DNA from: Planctomycetota bacterium
GTDB taxonomy: Bacteria; Planctomycetota; Phycisphaerae; UBA1845; UTPLA1
DNA length: 64,000 nt
Assembly: GCA_003576905.1 (NCBI GenBank)
Contig: QEVG01000023.1
Span: 1-64,000 of the forward strand
Direction of reading: 5' to 3'
Below, piece after piece: positions 10,138 to 37,671 of the stretch; position 1 is the stretch's first letter, and every line of letters begins with the position of its first letter. The translations under genes were made by a program, and so were the position numbers. The notes under the pieces are model-generated. The model did no database searches, was not told the origin of the DNA, and worked only from the letters and a program-made list of their open reading frames with translations.

Positions 10138-12051
10138 GTGAGCATCTCTGCGGACCCACTCCTTCGCGCCCCGGCACGGCGAACTCGACGCGCCGGCCTC
10201 CTGCTTTCGGCGTTCTCGCTGCTCGTCTGCGTCAACCTGCTATCGGCCCAGACCGATTCCGCCCCCTCGGACGATGCGGCCGCCGTCGCTGCTTCCGCCC
10301 CCGCTTCGCCGCCCGCTCGACTCGAGCCGAAAGACTACTTCGGCCTCTGGTCGCTGGCGCCGGCGCTGGTCGCCATCGGGCTTGCCGTCATCACCCAGCA
10401 GGTCGTGCCGTCGCTTTCACTCGGCATCCTGACCGCCGCCGTGATGATGTGCTTCCATGCCGGCGACCACAACCCGATTCACATGCTGATGTACGCCGTG
10501 CGGCACTACCTGATCGGCGTCTTCATTCCGCCCGACCACGGCGACGTCAAGCGGATCGGAGATGGGTACAACCGCCTGCACGTCATCGTATTCACCCAGT
10601 TCATCGGCGGCATGATCGGCATCATCGAGGCCAACGGCGGCACCCGCGCGATGGTCGCCCGCGTCGTGCACCTGATGAAGACGCGCGTGCGCGGCCAGCT
10701 TGGGGCGTTGGCGGGCGGGATCATCATCTTCTTCGACGATTACGCGAACGCGCTCATTCTCGGTCCGGCGATGCGGCCCGTCTTCGACAAGCTTCGCCTG
10801 TCGCGCGCCAAGCTGGCCTACATCGTCGACTCCACCGCCGCGCCGGTCGCCTCGCTGTTCATCGGGACATGGCTGGCCACGGAGATCAATTACCTCGATG
10901 GGGCCATCTCCGGCCTTGGCGAGAGCCGGCCCGCCTTCCTCGAGGGCATGACCGGAACGAACGCTTTCTGGGGCTCCCTGCCCTATCGCACCTATGCGTG
11001 GCTTGCCCTCTGCTTCGTTTTCCTGATCGGCCTGACCGGCCGCGACTTCGGCCCGATGCGACGAGCAGAGGGCGAAGCATTGACCGGCGCGGGCCCCGCG
11101 GCCGCACCCGGCGATCAGGCCGAAGCGGAGAACGGCAAGCACTGGTTTCTCGGCTTCCTGCCGGTCTTCACGCTTGTTGCCATGACGGTGACACTCCTGC
11201 TCGTGACCGGCAGGCAAGGCTGCGATGCGGCCGGTATCGCCGTCGGATTCTCATCCTGGGCCGAGATCAAGAAGTCCATCATGGACATGCTCGGAAAGGC
11301 CGATTCGTACACCGCCCTGCTCTACAGCGGCCTCACTGCCGTCACCCTTGCCGCGATTGCCACCGTCTCCTCAAAGCGCCTCTCACTCTCTAAGACCATG
11401 TCCGCCATGACGACGGGCATGCAGCGGATCTTCGGGGCGCAGATCGTCCTCATTCTCGCGTGGGGGCTGGCCACCAGCACGCAGGACCTCCAGCTGGGTC
11501 AGGCCGCCACCGCTTTCATGCAGGACAAGGTCGATCGCGGGCTCTTCGCGGTGCCGCTGCTTCCCACGGTGATCTTCATCACGGCCTGCGTCGTCTCGTT
11601 CTCCACCGGCACAAGCTGGGGGACCATGGCCATCCTCTCGCCCACCACGGTCGCCATCGCGGCGAGCCTCCTCGCCCCATTGCCGGTCGAACAGGCCATG
11701 CCGCTCTTTTATGCCTCCATCGGGGCGGTCCTCACCGGCGCCGTCTTCGGCGATCACTGCTCGCCCATCAGCGACACGACCGTCCTCTCGGCAATGGCCA
11801 CCGAATGCGATCTGACCCAGCACGTTCGCACGCAGCTTCCCTATGCTCTCATCGTTGCGATCGTCGGTCTCCTCTGCACCGACCTGCTCGACTTTTTCCT
11901 TATTCGCAGCGTCCCCGACTTTTACAACAAATGGTGGAACGTCTATTTCGGCACCGCGATCGCCGCCGCGCTGCTATTCCTTATCGTCCTGCTTATCGGC
12001 CGCCGCCCGAAGGGGCTTGTCGCTGAACCTTCCGTCGAGATCGGCGTATAG
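10138..12051 (+). CDS. nhaC: NhaC-family Na+/H+ antiporter
   Basis: A 637-residue inner-membrane transporter starting at GTG 10138. It carries the NhaC-family blocks TGTSWGTMAIL and GDHCSPISDTTVLSA, the latter in the conserved half-helix that forms the ion path, with about eleven hydrophobic helices. The first 60 residues form an extra signal-like segment followed by an Ala/Pro/Asp-rich stretch, so the N-terminus is longer than in many members. A hydrophilic loop sits near residues 305-330. Related proteins exchange sodium for protons, or malate-lactate; the exact ion pair cannot be read from the sequence. It stands alone, with 188 bases before moxR. Confidence 0.88.
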   Translation: MSISADPLLRAPARRTRRAGLLLSAFSLLVCVNLLSAQTDSAPSDDAAAVAASAPASPPARLEPKDYFGLWSLAPALVAIGLAVITQQVVPSLSLGILTAAVMMCFHAGDHNPIHMLMYAVRHYLIGVFIPPDHGDVKRIGDGYNRLHVIVFTQFIGGMIGIIEANGGTRAMVARVVHLMKTRVRGQLGALAGGIIIFFDDYANALILGPAMRPVFDKLRLSRAKLAYIVDSTAAPVASLFIGTWLATEINYLDGAISGLGESRPAFLEGMTGTNAFWGSLPYRTYAWLALCFVFLIGLTGRDFGPMRRAEGEALTGAGPAAAPGDQAEAENGKHWFLGFLPVFTLVAMTVTLLLVTGRQGCDAAGIAVGFSSWAEIKKSIMDMLGKADSYTALLYSGLTAVTLAAIATVSSKRLSLSKTMSAMTTGMQRIFGAQIVLILAWGLATSTQDLQLGQAATAFMQDKVDRGLFAVPLLPTVIFITACVVSFSTGTSWGTMAILSPTTVAIAASLLAPLPVEQAMPLFYASIGAVLTGAVFGDHCSPISDTTVLSAMATECDLTQHVRTQLPYALIVAIVGLLCTDLLDFFLIRSVPDFYNKWWNVYFGTAIAAALLFLIVLLIGRRPKGLVAEPSVEIGV

Positions 12052-12239: not shown

Positions 12240-13232
12240 GTGACGCAGCTTGATGTCAAGAAAATCGGTCCCGCCATCAAGGCCGCCAGCGAACCCTTCA
12301 GCCGGCTCCGCGACGAGGTCTCCCGCGTCATCGTCGGGCAGCGGGAAATGATCCACCATATGCTCATCGCCATTCTCGCCAACGGGCACATCCTGCTCGA
12401 AGGCGTGCCCGGCCTCGCCAAGACGCTCACCGTGTCGTGCCTTGCGCGTGGCATCCGCACCGGGTTTTCGCGCATCCAGTTCACGCCCGACCTGCTCCCC
12501 GCCGACCTGATCGGCACGTTGATTTACCAGCCCCAGACCGGGCAGTTCACCGTCAAGAAGGGCCCGATCTTCTCCAACATCATCCTTGCCGACGAAGTGA
12601 ACCGCGCGCCGGCCAAGGTCCAGAGCGCCCTGCTCGAAGCGATGCAGGAGCGCCAGGTGACCATCGGCGATCAGACGCATCCGCTGCCGCAGCCGTTCCT
12701 CGTCATGGCGACGCAGAACCCGATCGAGCAGGAAGGCACCTACCCGCTGCCCGAAGCGCAGGTTGACCGGTTCATGCTCAAGACGACCGTCGTCTATCCC
12801 TCGCGCGACGAGGAACGAACGATCCTCGACCGCATGGCCTTCACCAACCCGGAGAAGACCATCCAGCCCGTGACCAGCCCGGAGGAGATCATCAAGGCCC
12901 GCGAGACGGTCGACGAAATCTACATCGACGACAAGATCAAGGATTACATCGTCAGCCTGGTCATGGCCACGCGCGACCCGTCGCAGTTCGGCCTCAAGCT
13001 CAAGCATCTGATCCAGTACGGCGCGTCTCCCCGCGCAACGATCATGCTCACGCTCGGCGCCAAGGCCGGGGCGTTCCTCGCCGGGCGGGGCTTCGTGACG
13101 CCGCAGGATGTCAAGGACATCGCACCCGCCATCCTCCGGCACCGCGTCATCATCACCTACGAGGCCGAAGCCGAAGAAATCACCAGCGACGACGTCGTCA
13201 AGACCATCCTCGACCACGTTCCGGTACCGTAA
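12240..13232 (+). CDS. moxR: MoxR-family AAA+ ATPase (first gene of the Bat cluster)
   Basis: A 330-residue AAA+ chaperone-like ATPase. Walker A GVPGLAKT is at residues 55-62, Walker B ILADEVNRAPAK near 115-126, and sensor 1 lies in MATQNPIEQEGTYPL, all diagnostic for MoxR. The start is GTG 12240 with GGAGGAA about 8 bases upstream. It leads a run of eight or nine same-direction genes. In such clusters MoxR is thought to act on the von Willebrand factor A (VWA) domain proteins encoded downstream, probably in metal-dependent assembly or envelope stress; that role here is inference from context. Confidence 0.93.
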   Translation: MTQLDVKKIGPAIKAASEPFSRLRDEVSRVIVGQREMIHHMLIAILANGHILLEGVPGLAKTLTVSCLARGIRTGFSRIQFTPDLLPADLIGTLIYQPQTGQFTVKKGPIFSNIILADEVNRAPAKVQSALLEAMQERQVTIGDQTHPLPQPFLVMATQNPIEQEGTYPLPEAQVDRFMLKTTVVYPSRDEERTILDRMAFTNPEKTIQPVTSPEEIIKARETVDEIYIDDKIKDYIVSLVMATRDPSQFGLKLKHLIQYGASPRATIMLTLGAKAGAFLAGRGFVTPQDVKDIAPAILRHRVIITYEAEAEEITSDDVVKTILDHVPVP

Positions 13233-13238
13233 GCGACC

Positions 13239-14114
13239 ATGGAACCCAAGGAACTATTGAAGAAGATCCGGCGGATTCACATCCGCACGAGCCATATCGC
13301 GAATGATTTTTTCGCGGGCCACTACCACTCCGCCTTCAAGGGGCAGGGCATGGAGTTTGAGGAAGTGCGCGAGTATGAGCCGGGCGACGAAATCCGGCGC
13401 ATCGATTGGAACGTGACCGCGCGGCAGGGACGGCCCTTCGTCAAGCGCTTTCGCGAGGAGCGCGAGCTGACCGTCATGCTTCTCGTGGATGTTTCCGGCT
13501 CGCAGGAATTCGGCACGGCCGGGCAGCTCAAGCGCGAACTCGCCGCCGAAGTCGGCGCGACCCTCGCCTTCTCGGCCATCAAGAACAACGACAAGGTCGG
13601 CTTCATCGGCTTTTCAGACCGCATCGAGCGATACGTCAAGCCCGACAAGGGCACGCGCCACGTCCTGCGCGTCATCCGCGAACTGCTCACGCTCGAACCG
13701 ACCGGCCGCGGCACCGACATTGCCGGAGCGCTCGACTACTTCAACAAAGTCTCGCGCCGCCGGGCCGTCGTCTTTCTTATCAGCGACTTTCTGGCGGATC
13801 CGTGCGACCGCCAGATGCAGGTCGCCCGCCGCCGGCACGATCTGATCCCCATCGCCATCACCGATCCGCGCGAGGTCGAACTGCCCAAGGTGCGGTACAT
13901 CGACCTCGTCGACGCCGAGACCGGCGAACGCTTCACCCTCGACACGTCCAGCGCCGCGTTTCGACGCATGTACCAGGCCCGGGCGCTCGGCCGCGCCGAT
14001 CAGCGTCGAAAAGCCTTTCGCAGGATCAAGGCTGATGCCATCGAGCTTGTCACTGGGCAGTCGTTCATCGATCCGCTGACCCGCTTTTTTCACGCGAGGG
14101 AGGCGCGCCTGTAG
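13239..14114 (+). CDS. DUF58 protein with VWA-like domain
   Basis: A 291-residue cytoplasmic protein beginning 6 bases after the moxR stop. It has the DUF58 hallmark REYEPGDEIRRIDWNVTAR and, after it, a VWA-like fold with a MIDAS-type metal site DVSGS (residues about 86-90) and a second conserved TDIAGAL segment. DUF58 proteins almost always follow MoxR and are presumed partners of the ATPase. No membrane helices are seen, unlike the longer two-helix DUF58 class. Confidence 0.92.
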   Translation: MEPKELLKKIRRIHIRTSHIANDFFAGHYHSAFKGQGMEFEEVREYEPGDEIRRIDWNVTARQGRPFVKRFREERELTVMLLVDVSGSQEFGTAGQLKRELAAEVGATLAFSAIKNNDKVGFIGFSDRIERYVKPDKGTRHVLRVIRELLTLEPTGRGTDIAGALDYFNKVSRRRAVVFLISDFLADPCDRQMQVARRRHDLIPIAITDPREVELPKVRYIDLVDAETGERFTLDTSSAAFRRMYQARALGRADQRRKAFRRIKADAIELVTGQSFIDPLTRFFHAREARL

Positions 14115-14116
14115 CG

Positions 14117-15235
14117 ATGCACACGCGTGCCGCACAGTCCGGCGCCGTTCCCCGGGCCTTTTCGCGCCGCCGCGCGATGGTCCTGCTGTGCGTCTGGTGC
14201 TGCGCCTGCGACGCCCGATCTTCAAACGCCCCGACCACCGCCCCGGCCACGCAGGGCGCACCCCCGTCGCGCGACGTCGAAAAGGGGCCGGTCCGGGCCG
14301 TCGTCGAGATCGACCGCAACGCCGTCGTTATTCCTGAAACGCTGACGTTCACGCTTACCGTCGACGCCGAGCGCGGCGTCGAAGTAAAAATGCCCGAACT
14401 CGGCGAGCTGCTGGGCCCTTTCGGCGTCCAGAAGATCGAAAAGGCGGAACCCGCCGAAGGCGACGTCTACCGCCGCGAACGATGGACCGTGACCCTCGAG
14501 CCATTCCTTCCAGGCGACGTCGCGATTCCGCCCCTGACGATCGCCTTTCGCGACGCGCGGCCCCGCGCCGACGGCAGCGAGGCCGATGTTCAGGACTCTG
14601 TAGATACACCCGAACTCGGCGTCCGGGTCACGCAAGCCCTCGCCGACGTGAAGCCGCCGGTGGCCATCGACGTTCCGACCTCGCTCACCCTCCTCTACTG
14701 GGCGCTCGGCGTCATCGCCGCTATGGCCCTTGTCGCCCTGATTGCCCGCCGCCTGCGGCGCGAACGTCCGGAGGCCGCCCCCGCCGCGCCGATCGTTCCG
14801 GCCCATGTCTGGGCACTGGCACAGCTCGACATGCTCGCCGCCGAGGGCCTGATCGAGCGCGGGCGGATTCAGGAGTGGTACTACCGCATCAATGCCATTG
14901 CCCGCCAGTATGTCGAACGCCGCTTCGGCCTGATGGCCGGCGAGCAGACCAGCGAGGAATTTCTCCGCGACCTTCAGCGGTCCTCGTTCCTCTCCGCCCG
15001 GCACAAGGACATGCTTCAGCAGTTCGTCAGCGCGTGCGATCCGGTGAAATACGCCCGGCACCAGCCCGGTCCGGAAGACATCCGCTGGGTTAACACCGCC
15101 GCGCGCAACTTCGTCGTCGAAACCGCGCGCACCGAGCCCGTCGAAGCGCCATTGGACGATTCCCCGCCGGTCGCGCGCGAGCGCCCCGCAACTGCGGAAA
15201 CATCCGCGCCTGGCGCGCCAGGAGCTTCCGCATGA
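14117..15235 (+). CDS. BatD-like membrane lipoprotein of the Bat cluster
   Basis: A 372-residue protein starting 2 bases after the DUF58 stop codon. A signal region with several cysteines (VWCCAC) could act as a lipobox. A beta-sandwich domain (about 55-185) follows with BatD-like character, including LTFTLTVDAERGVEV. A single membrane helix sits near residues 193-212, and a helical cytosolic tail similar to DUF4381 (about 225-340) contains a long block around residues 255-290. The C-terminus is Pro/Ala-rich. Its position between DUF58 and batA matches the slot where DUF4381 proteins occur in other Bat clusters. Function unknown; probably part of the membrane complex. Confidence 0.7.
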   Translation: MHTRAAQSGAVPRAFSRRRAMVLLCVWCCACDARSSNAPTTAPATQGAPPSRDVEKGPVRAVVEIDRNAVVIPETLTFTLTVDAERGVEVKMPELGELLGPFGVQKIEKAEPAEGDVYRRERWTVTLEPFLPGDVAIPPLTIAFRDARPRADGSEADVQDSVDTPELGVRVTQALADVKPPVAIDVPTSLTLLYWALGVIAAMALVALIARRLRRERPEAAPAAPIVPAHVWALAQLDMLAAEGLIERGRIQEWYYRINAIARQYVERRFGLMAGEQTSEEFLRDLQRSSFLSARHKDMLQQFVSACDPVKYARHQPGPEDIRWVNTAARNFVVETARTEPVEAPLDDSPPVARERPATAETSAPGAPGASA

Positions 15236-16320
15236 TCACCTTCGGACAGCCCTGGTTTCTCGTGCTGCTGGGTGTGATTCCGCTTATCTGGTGGGCGCAC
15301 CTGAGTCCGCGCCGGCGCGCCGCACTTCGCTTTTCGTCCGTAAAGCGCGTCAAGGAGGGCGCGTCGCCGATCTCCCAGGCCGCGCGGCACGTGCCGCCGG
15401 TCCTCCGCTCGCTGGCCGTCGCCCTGCTCGTGCTGGCCATCGCCCGGCCCCAGAAGGCGGACGAAGAGACGCGCATCTCCACCGAGGGCATCGCCATTCA
15501 GCTTGTGCTCGACCGATCGGGCAGCATGAAAAACGAGGACTTCATCGACGCCGCCGGCCGCCGCCTCACTCGGCTCGACGCCGTGAAGAACGTAGTCCGC
15601 CAGTTTGTCGAGGGCGACGGCGACGAGATGAAGGGCCGCGACGACGACCTCGTGGGGCTGATCGTCTTCGCCCGGTATGCCGACACCGAGTGCCCGCTCA
15701 CGCACGATCACAGACAGGTGGTGCGCGCCCTGGAAGGTGTCGAGGTGCCGACCACGCGCGACGAGGACGGCACGGCGATCGGCGACGCGCTCCTGCTCGG
15801 GGTCGAGCGCACCCGCAACATCGCGCGGCGCTTCGGCGAGGACGACGCCTTCAAAATCAAGAGCCGGGTGATCATTCTGCTGACCGACGGCGAACAGAAC
15901 TTCGGCAAGTATCTTCCGTCCGAGGCGGCCGAGGCCGCCGCGGCCGTGGGCGTGAAGGTTTATACCATCGGCGCGGCGCCCGATTACCAGGAGCAGAGCG
16001 TCGGCGGCCTTCTCTTCCAGCCGCGCACGGTACGCGTTCCGGTGCAGGTGAACGAAGAAGAACTCCGGAAGGTCGCATCCATTACCGGGGGCAAGTACTT
16101 CCGCGCCCGAGACGCCGACTCGCTCAAGGCCATCTATGAGGAGATCGACCGGCTCGAACGGACGACGATCGACCGGGAAAGCTTTTTCCGCTATGAGGAA
16201 CTGGCGTACAAGTGGTTTCACATCGGCGGTGTGAAGCTTCCGCCGCCACTGCTGGTGGCCCTGCTGCTGCTGGGTCTCGAGCTGCTTCTGGTCAACACCC
16301 GACTGCGGAGGATTCCGTAA
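15232..16320 (+). CDS. batA: BatA: membrane-anchored VWA-domain protein
   Basis: A 362-residue protein whose ATG overlaps the previous stop as ATGA. Two N-terminal membrane helices (about 7-20 and 55-75) are followed by a VWA domain with the MIDAS motif DRSGSM near residue 95 and the distal aspartate in DEDGTAIGDALL. A C-terminal membrane helix (about 335-355) ends the protein. This is the standard Bat (aerotolerance-related) layout. The VWA domain faces the periplasm and should bind a divalent metal and a protein partner. Confidence 0.9.
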   Translation: MITFGQPWFLVLLGVIPLIWWAHLSPRRRAALRFSSVKRVKEGASPISQAARHVPPVLRSLAVALLVLAIARPQKADEETRISTEGIAIQLVLDRSGSMKNEDFIDAAGRRLTRLDAVKNVVRQFVEGDGDEMKGRDDDLVGLIVFARYADTECPLTHDHRQVVRALEGVEVPTTRDEDGTAIGDALLLGVERTRNIARRFGEDDAFKIKSRVIILLTDGEQNFGKYLPSEAAEAAAAVGVKVYTIGAAPDYQEQSVGGLLFQPRTVRVPVQVNEEELRKVASITGGKYFRARDADSLKAIYEEIDRLERTTIDRESFFRYEELAYKWFHIGGVKLPPPLLVALLLLGLELLLVNTRLRRIP

Positions 16321-16355
16321 CGCCGCCGACATCTCCGGCCGGACGACGCAATGCC

Positions 16356-17393
16356 ATGAACGAGTTTCAGATCGACAACGTGAAGCAGCTCTACTGGCTC
16401 CTGCTCGTGGTGGGATGCGCCGCCGCCGTCGTCTACGGCTTTGCCATGAAGGGCGCCGCCCTGCGCGCCTTCGCCCCGTCCGGCCTGCTGACCATTCTCG
16501 CTCCCGACGTCAGCCGTCCGCGCCAGATCGTCAAGTCCGTCCTGGCGATCGCGGCGATGGCGTCCATCGTCATGGCCCTGATCGGGCCGCGCTACGGCGC
16601 CTACTTCGAGGACGTTCAGCGTCGCCAGCTTGACATCATGATCTGCCTCGACGTTTCCCGAAGCATGCTCGCCGAGGACGCCGGGATGTCCCGCCTGGCC
16701 CGCGCCAAGGACGATATCAAACGCCTCATTGACAATCTCCAGGGCGGCATGATCGGGCTTGTCGCCTTCGCCGGCCGGGCCGACCTGGTCTGCCCCCTCA
16801 CCGATGACTTTGACTTCTACCGGCTTGTCCTCGACGACGTGAACATGGCCAGCGTTCAACTCGGCGGAACCAACATCGGCGAGGCCGTCGCCGTCGCGCG
16901 CCGCGCCCTGGGCGAAAAGCGTGGCCACCACCGCGCCATCGTCATCATGTCCGACGGGGAGGATCACGGCGAGGCGGCCGTTGACCAGGCCAGGCTCGCC
17001 CGCGAGGAGCACATCGCCGTCTATGCCATCGGTGTCGGCGATCAGGAACGCGGGGCCCTCGTACCGATCGACCAGGAAGGCCGGCGAAGTTACCTCATGT
17101 ACGAAGGCGAGCAGGTCTGGTCGAAAATGAACCCGCAGACGCTCAAGAACATCGCCCTCGCCGGGGGCGGAGAATATCATCCCAGCGGCCAGGTTGCCGC
17201 CGGGCAGCGGACGCTCGAATGGATCTACACCGCGAAGCTCGCCCCCTTGCAGGAGGCGGACCTTAAGAAAAAGCGGATTCCGAGCCAGCTGCCGCGCTTT
17301 GCATGGCCGGCGTGGCTGGCCCTGCTTCTGCTTGTCATCGAGACGCTCGTCAGCGAGCGTCGCCCGGCCAGACTTCGGAGCGCCCAGGCATGA
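16356..17393 (+). CDS. batB: BatB: second membrane-anchored VWA-domain protein
   Basis: A 345-residue protein with the same design as batA: N-terminal helices (about 9-27 and 62-82), a VWA domain with MIDAS DVSRSM near residue 97 and GGTNIGEAV, and a C-terminal helix. I set the start at ATG 16356, 35 bases after the batA stop, because the first membrane helix follows at once; a longer frame reaching back into batA has no support. BatA and BatB are expected to form a membrane complex. The stop overlaps the batC start as ATGA. Confidence 0.9.
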   Translation: MNEFQIDNVKQLYWLLLVVGCAAAVVYGFAMKGAALRAFAPSGLLTILAPDVSRPRQIVKSVLAIAAMASIVMALIGPRYGAYFEDVQRRQLDIMICLDVSRSMLAEDAGMSRLARAKDDIKRLIDNLQGGMIGLVAFAGRADLVCPLTDDFDFYRLVLDDVNMASVQLGGTNIGEAVAVARRALGEKRGHHRAIVIMSDGEDHGEAAVDQARLAREEHIAVYAIGVGDQERGALVPIDQEGRRSYLMYEGEQVWSKMNPQTLKNIALAGGGEYHPSGQVAAGQRTLEWIYTAKLAPLQEADLKKKRIPSQLPRFAWPAWLALLLLVIETLVSERRPARLRSAQA

Positions 17394-18406
17394 CGCACAG
17401 ATACAAATCCTTTGTGAGGCGATTGCGCACGACCCGGCCGAACTTTTTGCTCCGCGCGTGCGCGGCATTCGCCGTCGGGGCGGTCGCCCTCGCTTCCGCG
17501 CCGCCGGCCAATGCGCAGTCGCCCACCGCGCCGACGACCCCCTCGCTTCGCGCGGCCGCCGCCGGCATCGAACAGGGCAACCGACTCCTTGAGGAAGGCC
17601 GCTACGAAGAAGCCCTCGCGGAATATGAAAAGGCGCGGGCCAGCCTCCCCGATTCCGCCGAGGTCGCCTACGACCGCGGCATCGCCCTTTACCGCCTCGG
17701 GCGCTATTCCGAGGCGGAAAAGGCTTTTCAGGACGCGCTGGAGCCGGGCAACCTCGAACTGGAGGCCAAGGCGAAGTACAACCTCGGTCGCTCGGCGCAT
17801 GCTGCGGCCCTGGAAAAGAAGGACAACCTCCCGGACGCGATTAACGACCTGGGCCGCGCGATCAGCTTCTACAACGACGCGCTTCAGATCATCAAGGACG
17901 ACGCCGACGCGAAACTGAACAAGGAGGCCGCCGAGCGACTCCGGGCGTACCTCGAAAAGCTGCTCGCCCAGCAGCAACAGCAGCAACAGGAACAGAAGGA
18001 CAACCCGACCTCACAGCCGAACGAAGAGCCTGCGTCGCAGCCGAACGAGCCGCAGCCGTCTTCCCAGCCTTCCGAGGAGGAAAAGAACAAACAGGACCAG
18101 GGGCAGGAAGGGGACCAGGAGCAGGAAGGCGAGCAGGAGCAGCAGTCAAATCAGGATGGCGAGTCAAAGGAAGACCAGCAGAAGAAGGACCAGAAGGGTC
18201 AGTCCAGGAATCAGGACAAATCGGGCGATGGCAAGCAGGGCCAGCAGCAGCAAGCGCAGGCCAAAGGACAGGAAGGGAAGATGTCCGAAGAAGAGGCCGA
18301 GCCGATGCTCCAGGAGGCCCGCGACGCGGAGCGCCAGCGGCGCGAAGCCAACCGCATGCGCATGATGCGTCTTCGCGGGCGCATCCCCGTTAGACGAGAT
18401 TGGTAA
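17390..18406 (+). CDS. batC: BatC: TPR protein with Gln-rich charged tail
   Basis: A 338-residue exported protein. A signal peptide covers about residues 1-42. TPR repeats follow at about 50-130 (NRLLEEGRYEEALAEYEKA and a second copy). The region from about 185 to 300 is a run of Gln, Glu, Lys, Asp and Ser with a seven-glutamine block and almost no hydrophobic residues. The last 40 residues are basic and helical, with repeated RMRMMRLR. The ATG at 17390 overlaps the batB stop. Low-complexity tails are common in BatC proteins; this one probably acts as a flexible adaptor. Confidence 0.85.
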   Translation: MTHRYKSFVRRLRTTRPNFLLRACAAFAVGAVALASAPPANAQSPTAPTTPSLRAAAAGIEQGNRLLEEGRYEEALAEYEKARASLPDSAEVAYDRGIALYRLGRYSEAEKAFQDALEPGNLELEAKAKYNLGRSAHAAALEKKDNLPDAINDLGRAISFYNDALQIIKDDADAKLNKEAAERLRAYLEKLLAQQQQQQQEQKDNPTSQPNEEPASQPNEPQPSSQPSEEEKNKQDQGQEGDQEQEGEQEQQSNQDGESKEDQQKKDQKGQSRNQDKSGDGKQGQQQQAQAKGQEGKMSEEEAEPMLQEARDAERQRREANRMRMMRLRGRIPVRRDW

Positions 18407-18423
18407 GAGAATGTGACACACCC

Positions 18424-20202
18424 ATGACCAGGAAGACCAAGAGACCCGCCGCGATCGTGTTCGTCGCCGCCGCGCTGCTCGCGGCAGACTCGGCCCGCGC
18501 CCAGTCCGTCCGCGCCGAGATTTCCAGCGAACAGGCCGAAGTCGGCGAGGTGCTCGATCTCTATATCACGATCGTAAATCCCTCGCAGGCTACGGCGCCC
18601 GCGCCGCCTAAGACCCGGGACTTCGACATTCGAATCGCTTCAGTGACTCCTTCCGAAAGCACCCAGGTTCGGATCGTCAACGGCCAGATGACCCGCGAAG
18701 TGTCCTACACCTATCGTTACTCGGTCCGCCCGCTGCGAAACGGAAATCTGGTCGTTCCCCCGTTCATCTACAAGGAAAAGGGCCGCACATTCACCAGCCG
18801 ACCCATTCCCGTTTCCGTCGGCCAGGCCACCGCCGGCCCCTTTGTCCTGTGCGAAGTCGAGATCCCGCGCAATGTGGCCTACATCGGCGAGCCCGTTCCG
18901 ATGGCGCTCAAGATTTACGTGCGTCAGTTTCAGCAGGTCGGCTATGGCGTCCTGGATGCCAGCCAGATGTGGACGCTCCGCGACCGGGCGTGCCAGTGGG
19001 GCGTCTTTGCCGACGGCAACCTCTCGCCGGGCGTGCAGGAGGTTCGCCGCAAGGACGACGCCGGCGTCGAGCGCGACTTCTACGTCTTTTCCGTCGAGAC
19101 CACGATCTATCCCAACAAGTCGGGGCCCTTCGACTTCGGCGAGATTGAGTTCATTTACAAATACCCCCTCCAGCTTTCGCGATCGCTCATGGGCTACCAG
19201 ATCGAGCGCGCGCGCCGCATCGCCGCCACGCCGACCCTGCCCGAACTGACCATCGAGCCGATCCCCACCGAGGGCCGCCCGCCGGACTTCAACGGCGCGA
19301 TCGGCGTCTATTCAATCACCACGTCCGCAAAGCCCACCGAAATCCCCGTCGGCGACCCCATCACGCTCAGCCTGTCGATCCGAGGGGCGGGCTCGCTCGA
19401 ACGCCTGACACCGCCGCGGCTCGATCAGGTCGCCGCGCTGACGCGCGATTTTGAAGTCTCCTCCGACATACCCGCCGGGCGAATCGAAAACGACCGGAAG
19501 TTCTTCGCCGTCACGATCCGCCCGCTCCGCGAAGACGTAAAGCAGATCCCCGCGATTCCCATGAGCTACTTCAATCCGGCGACCGCCCGGTTTGAAACCG
19601 CCCTCAGCCGACCCATTCCGATTACCGTCACGGCCGCGGTCCGGCTCGCCCTGCCGGAGTCGCCGCAGTCCGACCTCGCCCAGGGGGCGGGCGTCCTGGC
19701 CCCGTTGGTCGAGACCACCGAGGGGCTTTTTCCGAATTACGACCGGCCCGAGGCCGTGCTGGCGAATCAGTCCGCCTCCCTCGGCACGGGCGTCTGGGTG
19801 CTGCTGCTTGTCATGCCCCTCGCCTACGTCGCGACGTGGATTGTCCAATCGCGCTCCGCGCGCCTGCGCAACAACGAGGCCCTGCGCCGCCGGAGCCAGG
19901 CGCTGGGCGCAGCGAAGAAGCTTCTCCAGTCGCCGCAGGCCGAGTCGCCCGGTACCGTCCGCGCAGCGGTCATGGGTTACATCGCCGACTGCTGCAATGT
20001 GCCCGCCGGGGGGCTTACGCGCTCCGAGGCGGTTCGGCTTGCGGCGTCGCGCGGACTGCCCCGCGACGTGACCGAGCGACTCGACCGGTTCATCGAGGAT
20101 CTCGAGTATGCCGAGTACGGCGGTTCTGCCGCTGCGCCGGCGGCCCCGGCCGGGCGGGCCCTTGGCCTCATCCAGGAAATGGAGCAAGCCGGCTTCCGAT
20201 GA
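18424..20202 (+). CDS. batD: BatD: membrane-anchored multi-domain beta protein
   Basis: A 592-residue protein. A signal peptide with cleavage near ARA-Q (about residue 28) is followed by several beta-sandwich domains typical of BatD (SEQAEVGEVLDLYITI near the N-terminus). A membrane helix lies at about 455-475 and a helical cytosolic tail ends the protein. I prefer ATG 18424; an in-frame ATG at 18400 overlaps the batC stop and adds eight residues before the signal sequence. Family knowledge places BatD in the periplasm, attached to the BatAB complex. Confidence 0.88.
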   Translation: MTRKTKRPAAIVFVAAALLAADSARAQSVRAEISSEQAEVGEVLDLYITIVNPSQATAPAPPKTRDFDIRIASVTPSESTQVRIVNGQMTREVSYTYRYSVRPLRNGNLVVPPFIYKEKGRTFTSRPIPVSVGQATAGPFVLCEVEIPRNVAYIGEPVPMALKIYVRQFQQVGYGVLDASQMWTLRDRACQWGVFADGNLSPGVQEVRRKDDAGVERDFYVFSVETTIYPNKSGPFDFGEIEFIYKYPLQLSRSLMGYQIERARRIAATPTLPELTIEPIPTEGRPPDFNGAIGVYSITTSAKPTEIPVGDPITLSLSIRGAGSLERLTPPRLDQVAALTRDFEVSSDIPAGRIENDRKFFAVTIRPLREDVKQIPAIPMSYFNPATARFETALSRPIPITVTAAVRLALPESPQSDLAQGAGVLAPLVETTEGLFPNYDRPEAVLANQSASLGTGVWVLLLVMPLAYVATWIVQSRSARLRNNEALRRRSQALGAAKKLLQSPQAESPGTVRAAVMGYIADCCNVPAGGLTRSEAVRLAASRGLPRDVTERLDRFIEDLEYAEYGGSAAAPAAPAGRALGLIQEMEQAGFR

Positions 20203-25797: not shown

Positions 25798-26103
25798 TCA
25801 CACACCCCACTGCGTCTGCCCCCTCCAGGCCGGACCTCCCATCAAGAATACCCTGAAATCGTCGCAATAGCCCGCAACCGAGCGCGTTATGCCTGCGGGG
25901 AGAGCGTGCGCGCGAACGCCGAAATCGGCTTGCCCCACGCGGGAATGCCCCTGTTTCGGCGGGGGCGAGCGCCCCTCGGCGGCTGGCCCAGCCGGTGCGA
26001 CGCGTGACCCGAAAGGCGGTACAATTGTCACCGTTAATCTATGGGGTGTTCATGCCCCTTTGGTGACTCAGCACATTCACACGACATGTACCCGAGATGC
26101 AGA
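25798..26103. other. Intergenic region, 306 bases, divergent
   Basis: This lies between the divergent GDSL lipoprotein and prepilin-like genes. A TACAAT -10-like box occurs near 26020-26030, ahead of the prepilin gene, without a clear -35 match. No repeat, RNA gene or small coding frame is supported. Confidence 0.4.
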
Positions 26104-26733
26104 ATGTTGACCGCGGACAACGCTCCGACTCACTCCGTGCCGCCGCGTTCGGCGCCCTCGCGCCGCGCCTTTACCCTTATCGAGCTGCTTCTGACGATCG
26201 CCATCATCGCCGTGCTGATCGGCATTCTCTTCCCGGTCTTGTCCGCCGCCCGGTCGCGCGGGGAGCGCACCGCGTGCAGCAGCAATCTTCATCAGGTCGG
26301 CATGGCGATGCGTTCCTACCTCGATGCCAACGCCGACATCTATCCGTTCGCGTCGTTCATGCCGTCGGTTGACGCATTTCCCGTTCCGTCCGGCGAGACC
26401 ATCTTCATCGCCGACGTCCTTCGCGATCATGCCTCAGGCGATCCCAAGGCGTTCGCCTGTCCGAAGGACACCGGGCAGATCGCCCGCACGGCTCCAAACG
26501 TAGGCAAGGCGTACTATGAGACCGAGAAGACCAGCTACGAGTATCGAAGCCATCTGCTCGGGGGGCAGACGATGGAAACCGCGCTTAAGCGCATCCAGGA
26601 ATTCACCGGCGAGCGCCGATCCGAGAACACGATCTGGATTTTCCGCGACTACGACAACTTCCACGGCACGGGCGGAAGCGACGGCGCCCGCCGATATGTC
26701 TACAGCGACGGCCATGTGACCGACTATGAGTAA
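26104..26733 (+). CDS. Prepilin-type protein with H-X-DG C-terminal motif
   Basis: A 209-residue protein with a type IV/type II prepilin leader: a basic segment then RRAFTLIELLLTIAIIAVL, where processing would leave Phe as residue 1 of the mature protein. The following segment CSSNLHQVGMAMRSYLDAN is typical of planctomycete pseudopilins. The C-terminus has His before SDGHV (residues near 185-203), related to the prepilin-associated H-X9-DG domain. I use ATG 26104; in-frame ATGs at 26086 and 26041 only lengthen the leader. Role: a surface or pseudopilus component, or a protein handled by that export route. Confidence 0.8.
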   Translation: MLTADNAPTHSVPPRSAPSRRAFTLIELLLTIAIIAVLIGILFPVLSAARSRGERTACSSNLHQVGMAMRSYLDANADIYPFASFMPSVDAFPVPSGETIFIADVLRDHASGDPKAFACPKDTGQIARTAPNVGKAYYETEKTSYEYRSHLLGGQTMETALKRIQEFTGERRSENTIWIFRDYDNFHGTGGSDGARRYVYSDGHVTDYE

Positions 26734-33107: not shown

Positions 33108-33490
33108 CCCGCTGCGCGCCGTCGATTACCCGAGGCCATTGCGAAAACCCCGAAGTACATCGGCATCGTCAATACGCGTCATCGCGTTTCGGGCATGAGC
33201 TATCGTATGTCTCGATTCAGCGCGCTGTGCCATAATGCACATCCAGTGCCGTGCCCGTCGTCTGGCATTGCCAATCCACCTCGATACGTGCGCCCGATTT
33301 CGCGCGCTTCGGTGGCAATCTGAGTCCACGGCGGCCCGCGACCTTGTTTCGAGGGAAGTGTCGAGTTATGCTTTCGATCTGAGGAAGGACGCCCGCCCTC
33401 ACAGTGCATCGCTCTTTTGTCCCGAGCTGCGATGCGGATCAAGCGGGCGGAATATTACGGAACGTGCATTTCATTTCAGGAGGGACACCT
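33108..33490. other. Intergenic region, 383 bases
   Basis: This lies upstream of the CHRD/PEP-CTERM gene. A small palindrome (TGGCATTGCCA, 33263-33273) and a weak TTGTTT/TATGCT pair near 33342-33370 are visible but not convincing. No sigma-54 type -24/-12 promoter is seen. No coding frame is supported. Confidence 0.4.
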
Positions 33491-34075
33491 ATGTCTCGAT
33501 TCTCGCGCTTTGTTCTGTCGGCTTTTGTTCTGATCGCATCCGGCTCCGTCGCCCAGGCGGCCCTGATCACGTACGTGGCGCACCTTGACGGGCCCAGCGA
33601 GTCTCCCCCGAATGCGTCGCCCGGAACCGGCACGGCCACGATCATCTACGACACCGATGCCCACACGCTGGACATGGACGTTACTTTTTCCGGCCTGATC
33701 GGCACAACCACGAACGCCCACATTCATGCCACCACCGCGGCGCCCTTCACCGGAACGGCCGGTGTCGCTACGACAACACCGACGTTTGCCGGCTTTCCGT
33801 CGGGCGTCACATCGGGCAGCTACATGGCCGTCCTCGACCTGACCCTTGCTTCGAGTTACTCCGCGGCGTTTCTTTCCGCCAATGGCAACAGCACGGCCGC
33901 CGCCGAAGCCGCCCTGATGACCGCCATCGCCGAGGGCCGCGCCTACTGGAACATTCACAGCAGTATGTTCTCTGGCGGCGAGATTCGCGGCTTTTTCAAC
34001 CTGATCCCCGAGCCGGCCACCCTGTCCCTTGTCGCGGTGGCGGGTCTATTCCTCCGGCGTCGCCGGCGGCGATAG
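33491..34075 (+). CDS. CHRD-domain protein with PEP-CTERM sorting signal
   Basis: A 194-residue secreted protein. The ATG at 33491 has a perfect AGGAGG 7 bases upstream and opens a signal peptide ending near AQA-A (about residue 19). The body is one CHRD domain with THAHIHATT-like and YWNIHS blocks, as in related proteins. The end is a classical PEP-CTERM: IPEPATL, a hydrophobic helix, then RRRRRR. This tail targets the protein to an exosortase, which is not in the window. It is transcribed towards a bidirectional terminator. Confidence 0.9.
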   Translation: MSRFSRFVLSAFVLIASGSVAQAALITYVAHLDGPSESPPNASPGTGTATIIYDTDAHTLDMDVTFSGLIGTTTNAHIHATTAAPFTGTAGVATTTPTFAGFPSGVTSGSYMAVLDLTLASSYSAAFLSANGNSTAAAEAALMTAIAEGRAYWNIHSSMFSGGEIRGFFNLIPEPATLSLVAVAGLFLRRRRRR

Positions 34076-34219: not shown

Positions 34220-35245
34220 CTACGGCACCAGAAACGCGTCACTCCGCATGCTCGGCACCTCGCGGCCCGTGTACCGCTCGACGCCGATCACCCGGTAGAT
34301 GTCGTCGTTGTCGACCCCGACGCGCGGCGTCGCCGACCAGATCGCGCTCATGTCCGCACGCAGAACGTTCTGACCGTTCAGGCCCCCGTGGCTTCGCGAA
34401 TTCTCCGGAATCTGCCCTTCTCCGATCAGCCGCCGATCATCGTCCAGCATCGGGTTCATGTCCGCCACCAGGGGCATGTCCGGCTCGAACTCCGTCTTGC
34501 GCCATGGCGCCGTCACCAGGTTCGCCGAGTAGCTGTTATTTCGAGCGCTCGGAAAGTCATCGAACCGATCGAGATCCGACGCATGCACCGCGAAATCCCC
34601 CGCCCGCGCCGGATCGATGAACGCCTGGGGCGAAACATATCGGCCGCGCACGAGGAGGAACAGGTTGCGGCTGTTGCTGAAGCTGCCCGCGTCTCCCTGC
34701 CCGGCGGGCATCCATGAACCGCCGACCGGCACCGCGCCGGCGAAGGGCATGCTTGCGGAGTTCGCCTCGGTGTATCCGGCAATCCCGCCGCCGATCGTGC
34801 GAAGGTTATTCGCGCACATCGCCTGCTGCGCCGCGTTGCGCGCCGTGCGATAGCCCGGAACGAGAATGCCGACGAACAAGAGGATCGCTGCCGCGAGCCC
34901 GATCAGTTCGCGCATGGGCATCAGCGGTCCGCCGCCGGTGCCCGCCTCCGCCGCCTCCAGCGGTTCGGCCGCATTGGGGAATTTCAACACGCCCGACGCG
35001 CGTTCGACACGTGCCATGATTCTCGCGGTGAAGTCTCGGGGAGCGATGGGTTCGGGATCAAGATCGAGGGGGGCGAGCGTACGGCGTATCCGGGCACAGA
35101 TTTCGTTCAAGCGGGCCGAATCGGTGAACGACGCCTCAATGCGCCGGTTCTCGTCCGCGTCGGTCAACCCGAGGGCGTAACCGATCAATTCGGACTGCCG
35201 CTGCGCGTCCGGCACGTCCTGCGAACTGTTCTGCTGATTCGTCAT
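34220..35245 (-). CDS. Probable anti-sigma factor with pseudopilin-like outer domain
   Basis: A 341-residue protein directly downstream of an ECF sigma factor (21 bases). Residues 1-85 are helical and acidic, with ELIGYALGLTDADENRRIE, as in zinc-free anti-sigma domains. A membrane helix lies at 113-130. The outer part opens with a block at 144-158, CANNLRTIGGGIAGY, which closely resembles the segment after the prepilin helix of planctomycete pseudopilins. Near the end H286 and D298 (HGGLNGQNVLRAD) resemble the H-X9-DG pilin motif. It therefore looks like a fusion of an anti-sigma domain with a pilin-type sensor. The first part is family-based; the fusion reading is inference. Confidence 0.7.
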   Translation of the reverse strand: MTNQQNSSQDVPDAQRQSELIGYALGLTDADENRRIEASFTDSARLNEICARIRRTLAPLDLDPEPIAPRDFTARIMARVERASGVLKFPNAAEPLEAAEAGTGGGPLMPMRELIGLAAAILLFVGILVPGYRTARNAAQQAMCANNLRTIGGGIAGYTEANSASMPFAGAVPVGGSWMPAGQGDAGSFSNSRNLFLLVRGRYVSPQAFIDPARAGDFAVHASDLDRFDDFPSARNNSYSANLVTAPWRKTEFEPDMPLVADMNPMLDDDRRLIGEGQIPENSRSHGGLNGQNVLRADMSAIWSATPRVGVDNDDIYRVIGVERYTGREVPSMRSDAFLVP

Positions 35246-35266
35246 GATCCTGTTTCCACCCTGATC

Positions 35267-35896
35267 TCAGTCGCCGCGGCCCCGGCTCCCCGATTCTTCC
35301 AGCTTTCGGTACTGCTGGGCGAAATGCGACACCGCCGCGTGCAGCCGACTCTTCACCGTTCCCAGCGGAATCGAGAGAATGTCGGCAATCTCTTTGTAGG
35401 CGAACCGCTGGAAGTAACCCAGCATCAACACCTCCCGCAGGTTGTCGGGCATTCGCGCCACGACTTCGCCGACCCGACGCCGCGTCTCTTCGGCCTCGAG
35501 GGCGCTGTCGGGAGCGGCCTCGTCGTCCGACAGAAAGTCGAGATAGCTCACCGCGTCCGACGCGTCGCCGCCGGCTCCCTGGGAAAGCGGCAGTTCCCTT
35601 TTTCTCAACCGCGATCGCAGGAAGTCCCGCGCCTTGTTGGCGGCGATCGTGAACAGCCAGGGCCGAAACCGCCTCGATGCGTCAAAACCCGCCGCCGACT
35701 GGAATACCTGTACAAACGTCTCCTGAACGACATCCTCGGCCGCGGCGGAGTTGCGGATGAACCGGCTTACGAACCGGAACAGGTCCTCGCTGTGCCGCTC
35801 GACCAGGATCTCGAAGGAACCGTGATCGCCCGAGAGGAAATCGGCCAGCAGGCTCTCGTCTGAAGCAGCGCTACCCCGGTCTCCACGTCGGTTCAC
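35267..35896 (-). CDS. ECF-subfamily RNA polymerase sigma factor
   Basis: A 209-residue sigma-70 family ECF factor. Region 2 (about 25-95) includes AAEDVVQETFVQVF and FRPWLFTIAANKARDFLR, and region 4 (about 140-195) includes LREVLMLGYFQRFAYKEIADIL and GTVKSRLHAA. A 40-residue linker separates them. The start is GTG 35896 with AGG about 7 bases upstream. The next gene encodes its likely anti-sigma factor, so the pair should form a membrane-signalling unit. It is divergent from the sigma-54 activator. Confidence 0.92.
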   Translation of the reverse strand: MNRRGDRGSAASDESLLADFLSGDHGSFEILVERHSEDLFRFVSRFIRNSAAAEDVVQETFVQVFQSAAGFDASRRFRPWLFTIAANKARDFLRSRLRKRELPLSQGAGGDASDAVSYLDFLSDDEAAPDSALEAEETRRRVGEVVARMPDNLREVLMLGYFQRFAYKEIADILSIPLGTVKSRLHAAVSHFAQQYRKLEESGSRGRGD

Positions 35897-35996
35897 TCGT
35901 TACCTGCCATTCCTACGACCCCGGCCCAATTAAGGTTCTTAAACCAATCGGCCTCTTTATTTATGTCGGTGTCGCCCTGGGTGGGTCAATTTACCC

Positions 35997-36066: not shown

Positions 36067-37671
<1,605 letters not shown>

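Follow-up and report, generated by a model that had tools for sequence, protein, structure and literature searches.

What can a membrane-bound anti-sigma factor sense if everything downstream of its cytoplasmic domain appears to derive from a pseudopilin? The question is raised by a two-gene locus within the window, as we denote the whole stretch of DNA analyzed (positions 1-64,000 of contig QEVG01000023.1), in which the gene for an ECF sigma factor, P0002, precedes that for the window protein, P0001. Class I membrane anti-sigma factors such as RskA, RseA, and RsiW share with P0001 the operon order, the N-terminal domain, the single helix, and an outer sensor, but P0001 alone appears to have a pseudopilin-derived helix and outer domain; to our knowledge, the corresponding parts of the other three do not come from a pseudopilin. 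The signals to which planctomycete ECF sigma factors respond are mostly unknown. Proteins that combine an anti-sigma and a pilin-type part are called fused below.

The sigma factor gene (35267..35896, minus strand, GTG start) encodes a protein of 209 amino acids in which both Sigma70_r2 (66.1 bits) and Sigma70_r4_2 (43.5 bits) score above the Pfam cut-off. It is separated by a 21-nt spacer from the second gene (34220..35245, minus strand), which encodes P0001, a predicted membrane anti-sigma factor of 341 amino acids with a pseudopilin-derived helix and outer domain. P0001 contains a single hydrophobic stretch (residues ~107-135; the best other 19-residue window scores 0.7). The preliminary description, which placed an ECF sigma gene and a second gene at these coordinates and gave the latter one membrane helix, agrees with these observations. 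The upstream region of the sigma gene also serves a divergent gene (36067-37671, plus strand) for a regulator with the GAF-sigma54-activator-Fis architecture, and a gene for a CHRD-domain protein (33404-34075, plus strand), whose PEP-CTERM-like end scores below the cut-off, converges on the P0001 gene.

Residues 1-103 of P0001 (34937..35245, minus strand) are assigned to a cytoplasmic RskA-type anti-sigma domain and a linker, based on NCBIfam models and on profile comparison with the PDB. P0001 matches the anti-sigma model NF052375 with 40.5 bits over residues 20-144 (cut-off, 100) and PRK13920 with 19 bits. NF052375 also matches 29 of the 30 fused members of the window's group and 28 of the 29 members of another class; scores are given for only two members, both below the whole-protein cut-off. 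When a profile of 30 full-length relatives was compared with the PDB, RskA (4nqw) was recovered over profile positions 7-72 (E = 0.013), and a second profile, built from the other class, recovered RskA more weakly (E = 0.16). These comparisons place the N-terminal domain in the RskA class, in line with the anti-sigma-like N-terminus originally proposed. P0001 probably holds the ECF sigma factor at the membrane, with residues 1-103 as the predicted sequestering part. In several fused proteins (L079, L083-L086, and L214), two overlapping profile matches suggest two tandem anti-sigma domains ahead of the membrane helix.

The remainder of P0001, including the pseudopilin-type outer domain (residues 131-341; 34223..34855, minus strand), aligns with stand-alone pilins. 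Comparison of the 30 full-length relatives (A1) with 24 stand-alone pilins (A4) using hhalign yielded a probability of 100 and an E-value of 2.4e-41, with an alignment that spans P0001 residues 106-341, beginning where the pilin helix begins and reaching the final residue. Six further matches to P0001 were detected in its own genome, all in open reading frames with a prepilin leader; five start at residues 106-111, and the sixth (L005) starts at residue 54, across a stop. The best of these, L002, matches residues 111-313 with an E-value of 2.4e-14. This prepilin carries the classical leader AFTLIELLVVIAIIALLISILLPSLSRARE and ends in SDACLVP, which corresponds to SDAFLVP in P0001. A single-protein search of public contigs returned one relative, a stand-alone prepilin locus on JACQFE010000039.1 (Planctomycetota MAG), where one of the prepilins shares the string VGVDNDDIY with P0001.

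Among PDB sequences, the 30-member profile matched six type IV pilins over positions 95-166 (E-values from 7e-4 to 0.16) and, apart from these and RskA, nothing up to an E-value of 10. The profile of the other class matched geopilin, PilE1, and PilA (best E = 2e-4), GspG (E = 0.29) and, weakly, two fusion proteins and two designed helical bundles; L214 was excluded from alignment A3. The AlphaFold model of P0001, computed from just 4 sequences, is unusable (mean pLDDT, 37.3); it contains four helices within residues 13-84, a helix at residues 111-161, and two short ones. We conclude from the sequence comparisons that the membrane helix and outer domain of P0001 are homologous to stand-alone planctomycete prepilins over their entire length. 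The anti-sigma/pilin-type fusion suspected from the single sequence is borne out: one profile finds both parts at separate, expected positions, and the second profile, from the other class, finds them again, with the weaker RskA match given above.

The pilin-type first helix (residues 109-161; 34763..34921, minus strand) retains the landmark positions of pilins. In the pilin register, E113, P130, and C144 of P0001 correspond to E5, P22, and C36, so that the acidic residue 5 and Pro22 are both present. Among 107 distinct loci encoding fused proteins, Glu or Asp occupies the E5 position in 102, proline position 22 in 101, and cysteine position 36 in 98; in these totals, the identical loci L096/L192 and L097/L197 were counted once, and L078 and L099, in which insertions displace the register, were counted as they fell. 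By set, the acidic residue, Pro22, and Cys36 are found in 74, 73, and 71 of 79 fused proteins (75 of these from the window's class) and in 30, 30, and 29 of 30 from the other class. At the E5 position, Asp is about as frequent as Glu, and position 4 carries a basic residue (Arg or Lys) in 40/40 members of the window's order; the corresponding Arg112, beside E113, is not pilin-like. The first block of the outer domain, CANNLRTIGGGIAGY, lies at residues 144-158, as described earlier, and begins with the pilin Cys36. This cysteine is invariant in the window's order even though the cysteine of the FxCP motif found in most relatives is replaced by Asp in P0001 (AFIDPA, residues 209-212; 34610-34621, minus strand).

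Toward the C-terminus, the outer domain contains the motif NSxxH...GQNVLxxD (residues 282-298; 34352..34402, minus strand), a relative of the H-X9-DG motif. N282, S283, H286, G291, and Q292 are invariant in 40/40 members of the window's order. The His/Asp pair that the preliminary description singled out is located at H286 and D298 as claimed, but the two residues fare differently: H286 is His in 40/40 members of the order and in 31/35 from other orders, whereas D298 is Asp in only 26/40 and 30/35, respectively, and is not invariant. The H-X9-DG spacing that had been ascribed to P0001 is absent, as the protein has H-X11-D followed by Met and shows no match to TIGR04294, the H-X9-DG model. This model matches 1/30 members of the window's group (E = 0.051) and 12/29 of the other class (E up to 0.1), where the H-X9-DG form does occur. 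The changes at D298 and at the FxCP cysteine could mean a changed role of the outer domain. At the very end, the tail SDAFLVP (residues 335-341; 34223..34243, minus strand) is common to stand-alone pilins in the form SDACLVP, and D336 was found in 75/75 class members examined, as if the tail served in docking or protease recognition. The consensus (S/T)D(A/T)xLxP is kept in fused proteins and, slightly altered, in most of the nearest stand-alone pilins (L002 and its relatives in L172-L185 and L191).

Could the outer domain, pilin ancestry notwithstanding, now be a ligand or stress sensor with no link to a pilus or secretion system, such that ligand binding frees the sigma factor? The family name would suit this explanation: P0001 aligns with Pfam DUF1559 (PF07596) over residues 134-162 (13.1 bits, below the gathering cut-off of 23.3), the model matches 17/30 members of the window's group (E up to 1) and 22/29 of the other class (E up to 0.1), with L192 of the latter exceeding the cut-off (27.6 bits), and its old name, SBP_bac_10, stands for solute-binding. 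The many invariant residues in the outer part would fit as well. Yet conservation of E5 and P22 is roughly equal to that of the outer residues, and a free ligand-binding domain would need neither. In pilins, these two residues matter for subunit packing. PMC2754498 further reports that nine of 74 DUF1559 genes of Rhodopirellula were upregulated during the first hour of exposure to cold and salt shock, in favor of a stress sensor, but in the sources consulted, the solute-binding label has no experiment behind it. On balance, we consider a pure ligand sensor unlikely, albeit a serious competitor.

In contrast to the helix, the prepilin cleavage site is lost. P0001 has Leu at position -1, so that it lacks the Gly or Ala of a prepilin leader. 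Gly or Ala is found at this position in 9/107 fused proteins (4/79 in the first set and 5/30 in that of the other class) versus 38/38 stand-alone pilins, many of which are closely related to one another and do not represent 38 independent cases; 43 stand-alone pilin open reading frames were found, of which five had no start by the rule used and were excluded. With the prepilin peptidase site lost, the anti-sigma domain should remain attached, and retention of the pilin helix combined with loss of the leader matches the need of a tethered anti-sigma domain. Assembly into a fiber would not be expected of an uncleaved protein. That P0001 is nonetheless still processed and assembled as a minor pseudopilin, with the prepilin peptidase removing the anti-sigma domain and thereby freeing the sigma factor, we regard as quite improbable: the genome has one A24 prepilin peptidase match, E5 is kept, and nine members do have Gly or Ala at -1, but the other 98 lack the residue that is present in every stand-alone pilin, and the basic residue at position 4 in all 40 members of the window's order argues in the same direction.

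The fused architecture is widespread. In the window's order, 53/61 genomes (its own included) contain a match to the single-protein query that extends from residue 32 or before to residue 339 or beyond; in the window's class, more than 100 of 298 genomes have, among the matches listed, one that runs from before profile position 42 to positions 334-336. Outside this class, four loci with an anti-sigma domain and a pilin helix were found (L096-L099), and with L096 as the query, at least 63/198 genomes of its class match from residue 11 or before to residue 319 or beyond. The two classes are, we guess, Phycisphaerae and Planctomycetia. Profile-profile comparison of the two class sets produced a nearly full-length alignment (probability, 99.96; E = 3.3e-39). 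Of 107 distinct loci, 106 have a sigma gene upstream in the same orientation, within 200 nt in 104 and at distances of 333 and 506 nt in the remaining two; the sole locus without one, L026, is at a contig end. The architecture recurs next to a sigma gene in many genomes, and no sigma gene was found beside pilin-type genes at 16 loci (seven and nine). Many members of at least two Planctomycetota classes retain the sigma/anti-sigma pair.

In a tree of 58 helix and outer-domain sequences, one branch (SH-aLRT, 98) separates 23 stand-alone from 35 fused proteins; the tree is unrooted and quickly made, and 8 of the 14 proteins chosen from the other class were lost in trimming. A single branch between the two kinds fits one old fusion. 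That the pilin-like helix is a chance resemblance of a hydrophobic segment, or the fusion a product of misassembly, as might be read from the subthreshold Pfam score of P0001 alone and the unusable AlphaFold model, can be dismissed as extremely improbable given the full-length matches in 53/61 genomes of the order and at least 63/198 of another class, the E-value of 2.4e-41 against stand-alone pilins, and the Pfam match of L192, this phylum-wide conservation being decisively contrary.

A shared promoter element indicates how the pair may be controlled. Upstream of the sigma gene, the most common pair of two tetranucleotides is GAAC-N16/17-CGTA, found in 52/77 stretches, whereas in five shuffled sets, no such pair exceeded 10. 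Among the first 30 loci, the element is present in 28 of the 29 that bear a sigma gene and starts 50-75 nt ahead of a reference point set 30 nt into the sigma match. In the window, the predicted autoregulatory promoter is GAACC-N16-CGTA (35914..35938, minus strand), with GAACC as the -35 and CGTA as the -10 element. In other orders of the window's class, the element is rarer, and several sites are more than 110 nt away; these distant sites may be due to chance. The other class has it in 22/30 loci, ten of these 22 from two genera. The counts of 52/77 and 22/30 each include their own copies of L096/L192 and L097/L197. The frequent location of the sigma gene behind this element implies that the operon is autoregulated through it. 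The link of the element to P0002 is likely, but it need not be exclusive, as further ECF sigma factors may recognize it too.

The pair's own operon is the only target found in the window's genome: the refined pattern yielded 11 sites, no excess over the 11 of the reversed control. Across three genomes of its genus, GAACM-N15/16-CGTANNRA occurs 11, 10, and 18 times versus 11, 11, and 5 times for the reversed control, the excess being that of the third genome, G002. For sites with given loci, the downstream genes common to two genomes of the genus are the sigma gene, moxR, and an open reading frame pair (L121/L140) that looks like an antisense reading. We rejected moxR as a target: the site at window position 12025 coincides in part with the end of the preceding open reading frame, and only 4 of 23 anchorable loci have a site (2 of 25 could not be anchored). 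The gene for the MoxR-like ATPase and those downstream (12240-20202, plus strand) are preceded by a GAACC-N15-CGTA that is not conserved; the downstream genes resemble DUF58, VWA, and TPR proteins, presumably a Bat-type operon. Stand-alone pilin genes were likewise discarded as targets, with a site within 400 nt upstream in 1/38 (L186), which by our own estimate is about the chance level.

Four genomes of the other class contain 47 sites of the refined pattern versus 28 for the control. In 8/8 genomes of two genera, a site precedes ompH-lpxC (named by Pfam in one genome); six of these genomes were not used in finding the site, and two of the six were covered by the pattern search but escaped it, owing to differences outside the GAAC and CGTA blocks. 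Over 110 nt, GAAC, CGTA, and just two further positions are identical in all eight, and the probability of a site in a shuffled 1000-nt stretch is 0.02. Of 30 genomes searched, 29 have lpxC; in the 21 outside the two genera, the window's included, no site was counted within 1500 nt before it (a site at -1309 in L283 was left out). The gene preceding lpxC is not ompH-like in the window's genus and certain relatives, and the search there covers the lpxC upstream region only. SigmaE of the SigmaE-RseA envelope stress system controls genes such as ompH(skp)-lpxC, and the location of these genes behind a sigma-type promoter in the two genera is a likeness to that system, from which P0001 differs in its unrelated sensor domain and in that no site of the ompH-lpxC type was found in the window's genome. 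The conserved element before ompH-lpxC points to a role in outer-membrane stress in those two genera. The element was also observed before genes for an ABC transporter with an FtsX/MacB-type permease (by Pfam) in two genomes of one genus (L252 and L253), and before a prepilin gene with the leader FTLVELL in two genomes of another (L258 and L259).

Taken together, we lean, by a modest degree, toward an ECF sigma/anti-sigma pair with a sensor made from a pseudopilin and a bait-type release by proteolysis. In this scheme, residues 1-103 would keep the sigma factor at the membrane, and the pilin-like part would be a bait that never enters a fiber. In the inner membrane or periplasm, the bait would meet pseudopilins, the platform of a secretion system or pilus, or mis-sorted envelope proteins, with contacts made through the same surfaces as in a genuine subunit. 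Gain or loss of such a contact would expose the anti-sigma factor to cleavage by a periplasmic protease and then by a site-2 protease, the second cut falling within the pilin-type helix and setting the sigma factor free. The released sigma factor would transcribe its own operon and, in at least two other genera, ompH-lpxC, in the service of outer-membrane repair. The pilin-type helix and outer domain would accordingly report on pseudopilins, the secretion platform, or outer-membrane assembly.

Release of the sigma factor would probably be through regulated proteolysis. The window's genome encodes M50 proteins, one of which, with a frame of 916 codons, has its M50 domain split into two halves, as in RseP. 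PMC4183432 describes proteolysis of anti-sigma factors in general, and PMC6058289 an interaction of PilS with PilA, which is a precedent for the reading of pilins in the membrane. The ideas that P0001 senses the condition of the cell surface and that residues 1-100 bind the sigma factor, both proposed at the outset, appear plausible considering the gene linkage, the promoter element, and the ompH-lpxC site. Against a pseudopilin-based bait count the comparable frequencies of Asp and Glu at the E5 position and the non-pilin-like Arg112, as well as the lack of excess targets (11 vs 11) and of an lpxC site in the window's genome. More narrowly, P0001 might act as a decoy subunit that docks in the inner membrane, through its E5/P22 helix, with mature pseudopilins or with the platform and thereby counts free pseudopilins or secretion activity, a possibility that we hold tentatively. 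If true, a single protein would both sense a surface machine and signal directly to RNA polymerase, and this sensor would be kept across a phylum whose genomes often have many prepilin genes.

Class I anti-sigma factors and planctomycete prepilins were both known; their combination in a single protein is new within the one open literature library searched, where no anti-sigma/pseudopilin fusion in planctomycetes was found. A close functional parallel is the PilS-PilA system of Pseudomonas (PMC6058289), where an inner-membrane pilin likewise feeds into transcription control. The pilin is sensed there by a kinase, a protein of its own, whereas P0001 is a regulator made out of a pilin. In sequence, the relatives are the planctomycete prepilins (N_methyl with SBP_bac_10/DUF1559 or H-X9-DG), which are homologous to the P0001 helix and entire outer domain and which share C36, the NSxxH...GQN motif and, in the nearest cases, the C-terminal tail, but differ from P0001 in its lost cleavage site, ~100 extra N-terminal residues, and H-X11-D. 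If the proposed scheme is borne out, a former fiber subunit would be added to the types of anti-sigma sensors. The pair supplies a sigma factor, a likely anti-sigma factor, a promoter element, and a pilin-type input, and so gives a handle on both the greatly expanded prepilin/SBP_bac_10 families of planctomycetes and the signals of their ECF sigma factors, making the role of the pseudopilins testable in a tractable planctomycete. The size of these families is apparent from PMC8567305, which describes prepilins with N_methyl and SBP_bac_10 domains and 100 N_methyl proteins in Tuwongella immobilis. The window itself contains a short prepilin gene (26041-26733, plus strand), with an N_methyl match of 29.3 bits and the C-terminal end YVYSDGHVTDYE.
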